Origin: Candidatus Eiseniibacteriota bacterium
Lineage (GTDB): Bacteria; Eisenbacteria; RBG-16-71-46
NCBI GenBank assembly: GCA_025360715.1
Contig: JANYBS010000026.1
Span: forward strand, 1 to 64,000
Direction of reading: 5' to 3'
Length of the DNA stretch: 64,000 nt
Below are positions 62,737 through 63,281 of this stretch, piece by piece. Position 1 is the stretch's first letter. Each line of letters starts with the position of its first letter. Both the position numbers and the translations under genes were made by a program. The notes below the pieces were generated by a model. It had not been told where the DNA came from. It saw nothing but the letters and a program-made list of their open reading frames with translations, and did not search any database.

Positions 62737-62861
62737 GGGAACCTTTCGCGGAGAATAGACAAGCCCCGAGGGGACTCCCACGGGGCCGCGAAGGACAACG
62801 CCATGCGAGGACCGGGCCCGGGGTGCTTGCCGGACTGCGGCCTGTCAGATGCGCCGACCCT

Positions 62862-62992
62862 CCCCTTCTTTCATCCCGACTTTAACGGTCGGCCCCGGAA
62901 TCACACCGGGTCTGCCATCAGCCGCGCCATGGGGGCGCAAAGCTGGGGCTCGCGGGCTGTACCGCCGGTGGGGACTTGCGCCCCGCCCCGAA
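62862..62992 (-). ncRNA. FMN riboswitch (RFN element) controlling ribD
   Basis: Minus strand GGGGCGGGGCGCAAGTCCCCACCGGCGGTACAGCCCGCGAGCC...GGCTGATGGCAGACCCGGTGTGATTCCGGGGCCGACCGTTAAAGTCGGGATGAAAGAAGG matches the RFN consensus. Confidence 0.97.
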
Positions 62993-63009
62993 GGAGAAAA
63001 GCGGGGCGG

Positions 63010-63038
63010 AGCATACGGCGCGAGCGCTGGGGCGTCAA
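63010..63038 (-). promoter_or_regulatory. Sigma70-type promoter P2 for the FMN riboswitch/rib operon
   Basis: Minus strand TTGACG (63038-63033) - 17 nt - TATGCT (63015-63010). Confidence 0.8.
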
Positions 63039-63076
63039 AAATGACGCGGCGAGGGGCCCGGTGGCCCCCCGCCGCT
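63033..63076 (-). terminator. Intrinsic terminator of the mini-gene upstream of the riboswitch
   Basis: Minus strand GCGGCGGGGGGCC-ACCG-GGCCCCTCGCCGC followed by GTCATTTTTGAC. Confidence 0.8.
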
Positions 63077-63195
63077 TTCGGTGCGCTGCTGGGATTCGCG
63101 AGGCGACCCAGCGGTGCTGGTCCGCCTAGCGGACAGCCACCTCCGCGATCCTCATCATGATGGTACTAGACAATGGACCACCTCCTTTCTTGCGT
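63036..63195 (-). ncRNA. Putative ~160-nt discrete transcript carrying a 15-aa ORF and competing hairpins
   Basis: Bounded by promoter P1 and the terminator; contains an extended SD, a micro-ORF and three competing hairpins; no ORF of 60 aa or more on this strand explains it. Confidence 0.55.
63126..63173 (-). CDS. Micro-ORF, 15 aa, MSSTIMMRIAEVAVR (TTG start)
   Basis: TTG TCT AGT ACC ATC ATG ATG AGG ATC GCG GAG GTG GCT GTC CGC TAG; SD AGAAAGGAGGTGGTCCA directly upstream with 7-nt spacing from GGAGG. Confidence 0.6.
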   Translation of the reverse strand: MSSTIMMRIAEVAVR

Positions 63196-63201
63196 TCGAT
63201 C

Positions 63202-63231
63202 AGCATAGGAGTGGCCAGAAAGACGAGTCAA
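63202..63231 (-). promoter_or_regulatory. Sigma70-type promoter P1 with upstream A-tract
   Basis: Minus strand AAAAAACCCCG-TTGACT (63231-63226) - 18 nt - TATGCT (63207-63202). Confidence 0.8.
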
Positions 63232-63281
63232 CGGGGTTTTTTGGCGCCGCTCGGGCCGCGGGCCCCCAGCGTACGGAACGC

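Follow-up and report, generated by a model that had tools for sequence, protein, structure and literature searches.

What occupies the seemingly empty gap between a predicted gene (63878-63282) and the FMN riboswitch and ribD operon in the window, by which we mean the whole 64-kb stretch of DNA that was analysed? A sequence-only reading had proposed a complete, unannotated transcription unit, comprising an A-tract, TTGACT-18-TATGCT, a very strong Shine-Dalgarno sequence (SD), a TTG-initiated ORF of 15 codons, hairpins, and a T5 terminator, and offered three options for its role: a regulatory leader, a micropeptide gene, or a ribosome-interacting small RNA. All of these parts are present on the minus strand, in a single-copy gene of ~160 nt, together with an additional element that the earlier list did not contain, a second SD (SD2) within the ORF.

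A mini-gene with two ribosome-binding sites

The features of the window copy are as follows.

63202-63241, minus strand: promoter, with an A-tract (UP-like; 63241-63236) 5′ of the -35 hexamer TTGACT (63231-63226), an 18-nt spacer, and the -10 hexamer TATGCT (63207-63202)
63174-63190, minus strand: SD1, AGAAAGGAGGUGGUCCA, complementary with one G.U to the 16S 3′ tail UGGAUCACCUCCUUUCU
63126-63173, minus strand: mini-ORF with TTG start, 15 codons and TAG stop; peptide MSSTIMMRIAEVAVR*, identical to that of the sequence-only reading
63138-63143, minus strand: SD2, GAGGUG (GAGGTG in DNA), within the ORF, the stop codon 9 nt further on
63145-63181, minus strand: helix H1, in which 63181-63175 pairs with 63151-63145, covering the 3′ half of SD1 and leaving the start codon in the loop
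63080-63141, minus strand: helix H2, in which 63141-63133 (SD2) pairs with 63089-63080 (the AGCAGCGCACC region), enclosing the stop codon and hairpin H3
63037-63075, minus strand: intrinsic terminator, a 13-pair stem (63075-63046) followed by T5 (63041-63037)

A promoter scan returned two sites in 700 bp versus 0.0 expected, the second being the promoter-like site of the rib operon. The mini-gene promoter is strong-looking, and its A/T tract, -35 and -10 hexamers have the same placement in the Eisenbacteria, G276-type and actinobacterial homologues described below; the RNA 5′ end is predicted near 63195 from the distance to the -10 hexamer and a conserved ACRC. The SD sequence AGAAAGGAGGTGGTCCA is matched at 63190-63174 with 0 mismatches, and this is the sole match in the 64-kb window, the scope of the SD length comparison, when up to 3 mismatches are allowed (0.04 expected). 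The RNA folds with a z-score of -4.1, and none of 200 shuffles folded equally well.

At the gathering threshold, Rfam reports only the FMN aptamer in the window, an ordinary RF00050 match (113 bits; 62859-62999, minus strand) located 5′ of ribD. A promoter-like site specific to the rib operon lies at 63038-63010, before the riboswitch; its -35 hexamer (TTGACG) and the T-run of the mini-gene terminator overlap (63041-63033).

Homologues are found in several phyla

A search of 60 relatives identified homologues in several genera of the window's family and in more distant families. The closest of these align as ACGCGGAAAGGAGGTGRTCCATTG, a variable segment, GGATCGCGGAGGTGGCTGTCCGCTAG, a variable hairpin, GAATCCCAACAGCCCACCGG and a terminator, with a promoter-like site 5′ of each. 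We extended the set using three successive covariance models (R1, R2 and R3), with which the element was found in 27 genomes from the phylum of the window, Candidatus Eisenbacteria, and in another 27 outside it (sample of 392). Of the latter, we doubt a few with the lowest scores, and the matches in G320 (32 bits) and G325 (27 bits) are tentative. The phylum of G133, which we take to be Methylomirabilota, has matches in 83 of 96 genomes, and in 51 of the 54 that are of high quality. In the phylum of G296, presumably Actinomycetota since the Rfam family RF02471 was described there, the RF02471 model finds 60 of 299 genomes, 26 of them above its cutoff. There is one match per genome, and a lone second match (L120, in G088) looks false; the model matches L118, L120, L121, L133 and L017:1477-1595 were set aside as probably false. 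One Eisenbacteria-type element, L022 (JACQPZ010000212.1), comes from a record named Candidatus Latescibacterota. The record is equivalent to G042, which is grouped with the window's own class, so that name and grouping disagree.

Neither an absence of homologues nor independent drift of the parts, two of the grounds on which the sequence-only reading was to be abandoned, was found in these sequences; every part is kept in the homologues, and a complete transcription unit is supported. A blastn search with the window element gave no match in phages or plasmids, and because the SD1-SD2 pattern is absent from viral contigs, there is no sign that the element is phage-borne.

The genomic context bears on whether the unit is a leader or attenuator of the riboflavin operon, as the term regulatory leader could be taken to mean. 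The element does adjoin rib genes in the window and in three other loci (L003, L006 and L008), but riboflavin genes are nearby in some Eisenbacteria only. However, most homologues have other neighbours and the linkage is not conserved; moreover, the mini-gene's own terminator lies between it and the operon, which has its separate promoter-like site, and we regard a rib leader as barely credible. ORF translations around the homologues, judged by eye, revealed no conserved neighbour gene.

The window copy joins the RF02471 family

The sequence-only reading could assign the unit to no named family, and this needs revision. RF02471 (Ms_IGR-5) scores the window copy at 34.9 bits (E=2e-6), below its gathering cutoff of 45 bits, and the host lies outside Actinomycetota, but intermediates connect the two. 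Locus L041 scores 81.2 bits with R2 and 61.4 bits with RF02471, and the RF02471 cutoff is also exceeded by L040, L047, L050, L066 and L073, all outside its described phylum; R3 in turn matches 30 of the 30 actinobacterial loci that were fetched. Some intermediates are contained in R2 and R3, although R1, built without L040-L050, found these too. The order of elements is common to both: ACAC-SD1, GAGGUG...UAG, a variable hairpin, CAG..CACC, and a terminator. Because intermediates exceed the cutoff and R3 matches the actinobacterial loci, we consider the window RNA and RF02471 to be one family, wider than described, to which the window copy, judged by these scores, belongs. In Rfam, RF02471 is a non-coding 'Actinobacteria sRNA' whose model has no partner for the 3′ strand of H2; its actinobacterial members share the SD1 and GAGGUG...UAG blocks and also have an in-frame mini-ORF, as in Nocardia farcinica (L095; 142.7 bits), where it reads MDSSRTREVAVR*.

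For actinobacterial members only, transcripts of Ms_IGR-5-type RNA are reported in Streptomyces (PMC8079986, PMC8780764), as are ribosome-protected reads from the M. abscessus and M. smegmatis homologues (PMC4974804). We found no literature on the function of RF02471 RNA, and nothing relevant on anti-anti-SD sRNAs or on the peptide motifs.

A second Rfam family, the alphaproteobacterial sRNA CC2171 (RF01867), scores 28.0 bits in the window, below its gathering cutoff of 75. It shares the 5′ block GAAAGGAGGUGAUCCAGUGUCU, but the window sequence breaks most helices of its model, the consensus shown has no evident SD2 block, and the relation is unproven. CC2171 starts with the same SD1-GUG block and may be another anti-16S mini-mRNA.

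The mini-ORF ends at a fixed distance from SD2

In 113 of 118 homologues, the ORF read from the first ATG, GTG or TTG at 3-12 nt past SD1 reaches its end 8-12 nt beyond SD2; when the SD1-SD2 segment is shuffled, a mean of 11.3 and a maximum of 21 of the 118 have such an ORF, a difference that is not a probability because related sequences are not independent. Four of the five exceptions (L174, L176, L177 and L179) lack such a codon, and by eye have an in-frame CTG, ATC or ACG instead. The ORFs are 11-17 codons long and always in frame. SD2 lies 9 nt before the stop in 101 of the 113 ORFs, 8 nt in eight, 10 nt in two and 12 nt in two, and it is GAGGUG in all 118 homologues except for a single AAGGUG; the two 12-nt spacings and the AAGGUG are exceptions to the pattern. 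It is very likely indeed that the RNA is real, conserved and translated.

The frame in which SD2 is read is not constant. It is frame 0 in most clades and +1 in Eisenbacteria family f5, where compensating indels shift the frame over the same nucleotides (..ISGGGCS*) and the stop remains in frame. Tentatively, the Planctomycetota loci L017 and L023 would read SD2 in the third frame (..RRWLSA*); both have weak model scores (29-30 bits) and were missed by R1 in their genomes. Since the frames over SD2 differ between clades, it is the position at which the ribosome starts and stops relative to SD2 that is conserved, and not the peptide. A micropeptide gene, whose product would be the peptide (…EVxxR), could draw on the conservation of the ORF and on the EV that lies close to the C-terminus in most clades; however, every frame-0 member encodes this EV as GAG GTG and no synonymous variant was seen, the nucleotides concerned give GGGCS or RRWLSA in other clades, and the N-terminal half is unconserved. 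This option of the earlier reading is thus disfavoured, and we consider it very improbable.

SD2 is paired in a covarying helix

H2, with GGUGNNNG on the SD2 side and a partner strand that precedes the terminator, has 96.4% of cells paired across 60 distinct sequences, with compensatory changes, and 96.7% in the actinobacterial set alone (30 sequences); for these and the other pairing figures given here, alignments from covariance models lean to the model structure. The covariation score of the whole structure is 0.356 versus 0.156 in shuffles (60 sequences). A test that does not use alignment columns gave a mean of 7.74 H2 pairs versus 6.35 after swapping 3′ strands between types, with all 200 swaps falling below the observed value (maximum 6.67). 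Examples of covarying pairs are GGUGGCUG/CAGCCCACC, GGUGCCUG/CAGGACACC, GGUGACCAU/AUGGUCACC and GGUGGCUAC/GUAGCCACC. H2 by itself could account for part of the conservation of SD2. The opposite half of the helix covaries around a nearly invariant GGUG half, and GAGGUG retains its GA although these two nucleotides are unpaired, which argues for a constraint on SD2 beyond pairing.

H1 pairs the 3′ half of SD1 with GGAC or GGAU ahead of SD2, leaving AGAAAGGAG exposed; its core is near-universal, unlike its outer pairs (68% of cells). Hairpin H3 is variable and shows covariation. A helix formed by GGAUCGCGGA and UCCGCGAAUCC, crossing H2, is possible in close relatives, did not generalise by eye, and was dropped. 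In a low-GC member (L151:3994-4106, minus strand), the 3′ part GCTCACCTCCTTTCTTTG resembles the 16S tail and might take SD1 as its partner in place of SD2.

Another explanation is a trans-acting sRNA whose seed, either the 3′ strand of H2 (CAACAGCCCACCGG) or the loop of H3, would pair with mRNAs, translation serving only to stabilise the RNA or to expose the seed. A stand-alone unit with its own terminator and no conserved neighbour fits this explanation, and the strand would be single-stranded once a ribosome covers SD2. Seeds are usually fixed, whereas this strand covaries with SD2, and we think such an sRNA unlikely.

Two types differ in their 5′ region

The window copy is of type I, in which the predicted 5′ end of the RNA lies about 8 nt from AAAGGAGG, on its 5′ side, and the A/T-tract promoter recurs across phyla. 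All four other genomes in the window's genus, and several in its family, have type II instead. Type II relatives (L098-L104, L108, L110, L111, L115, L116, L052 and L043; L051, L085-L093 and L122-L134 are similar) have an additional 5′ domain of ~90 nt that ends at SD1 and contains two covarying hairpins (90.8% of cells paired). A loop may pair with nucleotides just 5′ of SD1 to form a pseudoknot, which is consistent among members and hardly varies. The domain is aptamer-like in appearance; the loci scanned gave no Rfam match to it, and relatives of G133 have a similar-looking one. The two types were seen together in no genome.

A putative ribosome-parking switch

In six genomes (L056, L057, L059, L061, L063 and L064), the 16S 3′ end is TGGATCACCTCCTTTCTA, and the complementarity between SD1 and this tail extends over about 16-17 nt, with one or two G.U pairs; the 16S end was not found in the window's own genome, and the match for its host is therefore taken from these relatives. 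SD1 lies 5-10 nt from the start codon, most often 5 nt. SD2 is mostly 8-10 nt before the stop. A ribosome with the stop in its A site would thus have SD2 at 5-7 nt upstream of its P-site codon, and because this distance resembles that from SD1 to the start, SD2 may be able to re-pair with the anti-SD.

As read from its sequence, the element is a strongly promoted, conserved small RNA with a translated mini-ORF, a mini-mRNA, and a ribosome-interacting small RNA is the best of the three options offered earlier. We propose that a 30S subunit would land on the exposed AGAAAGGAG, upon which H1 would open and the ORF be translated; renewed pairing of SD2 with the anti-SD would then keep the terminating ribosome at the stop codon. 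The parked ribosome would keep H2 open and free its 3′ strand (CAGxxCACC), and the RNA would thereby report or buffer ribosome availability or termination, with the freed strand, ribosome titration, or altered stability of the RNA itself as candidate outputs. This reading is suggested by the symmetry of the SD1 and SD2 spacings and by the finding that GAGGUG, its unpaired GA included, is invariant while the rest of H2 is free to covary, and we put the probability of such a ribosome-parking switch at roughly 0.5. The general idea that an SD-like sequence can hold a ribosome at a stop codon is itself debated.

Alternatively, the long SD1 might titrate 30S subunits or ribosomes as a sponge that binds the 16S tail, the ORF being a by-product or a release route. 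In favour are a strong-looking promoter and an SD1 that far exceeds ordinary SDs in length and spans the 16S tail, but a sponge leaves the fixed stop-SD2 distance and the covariation of H2 unexplained, and a single gene copy would need to reach near-ribosomal abundance; we find it quite unlikely. A fuller form of the parking switch, which we advance only tentatively, is a single-copy RNA of several phyla whose full-length anti-16S site would capture one ribosome, held at the stop by SD2 after an unimportant peptide, with occupancy switching the fold and the aptamer-like 5′ domain of type II gating SD1.

Leader peptides and attenuators of the erm and trp type likewise use a short ORF whose translation alters RNA folding, but here no downstream gene lies in the same unit, no conserved one was seen beyond it, the peptide is unconserved, and the frame differs between clades. 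In prfB, an internal SD about 3 nt from the shift codon drives a +1 shift at a frameshift stop. The mini-ORF resembles it in having an SD-like element within coding sequence that would act on a ribosome at a stop codon; unlike prfB, the spacing of SD2 is initiation-like and the ORF simply ends. What appears to be new is the combination of a mini-ORF ending at an invariant SD2, the frame differences, the complementarity of SD1 to 16S, and the covarying H2.

The mini-gene escapes ORF callers, and at Rfam's own cutoff the window copy goes undetected. Although filed as actinobacterial and non-coding, this sRNA family reaches several phyla and has a translated-looking mini-ORF between two ribosome-binding sites. 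Because one copy is retained over such distances, a basic role tied to the ribosome is suggested, which may be, for example, the sensing of translation capacity, termination or ribosome supply.
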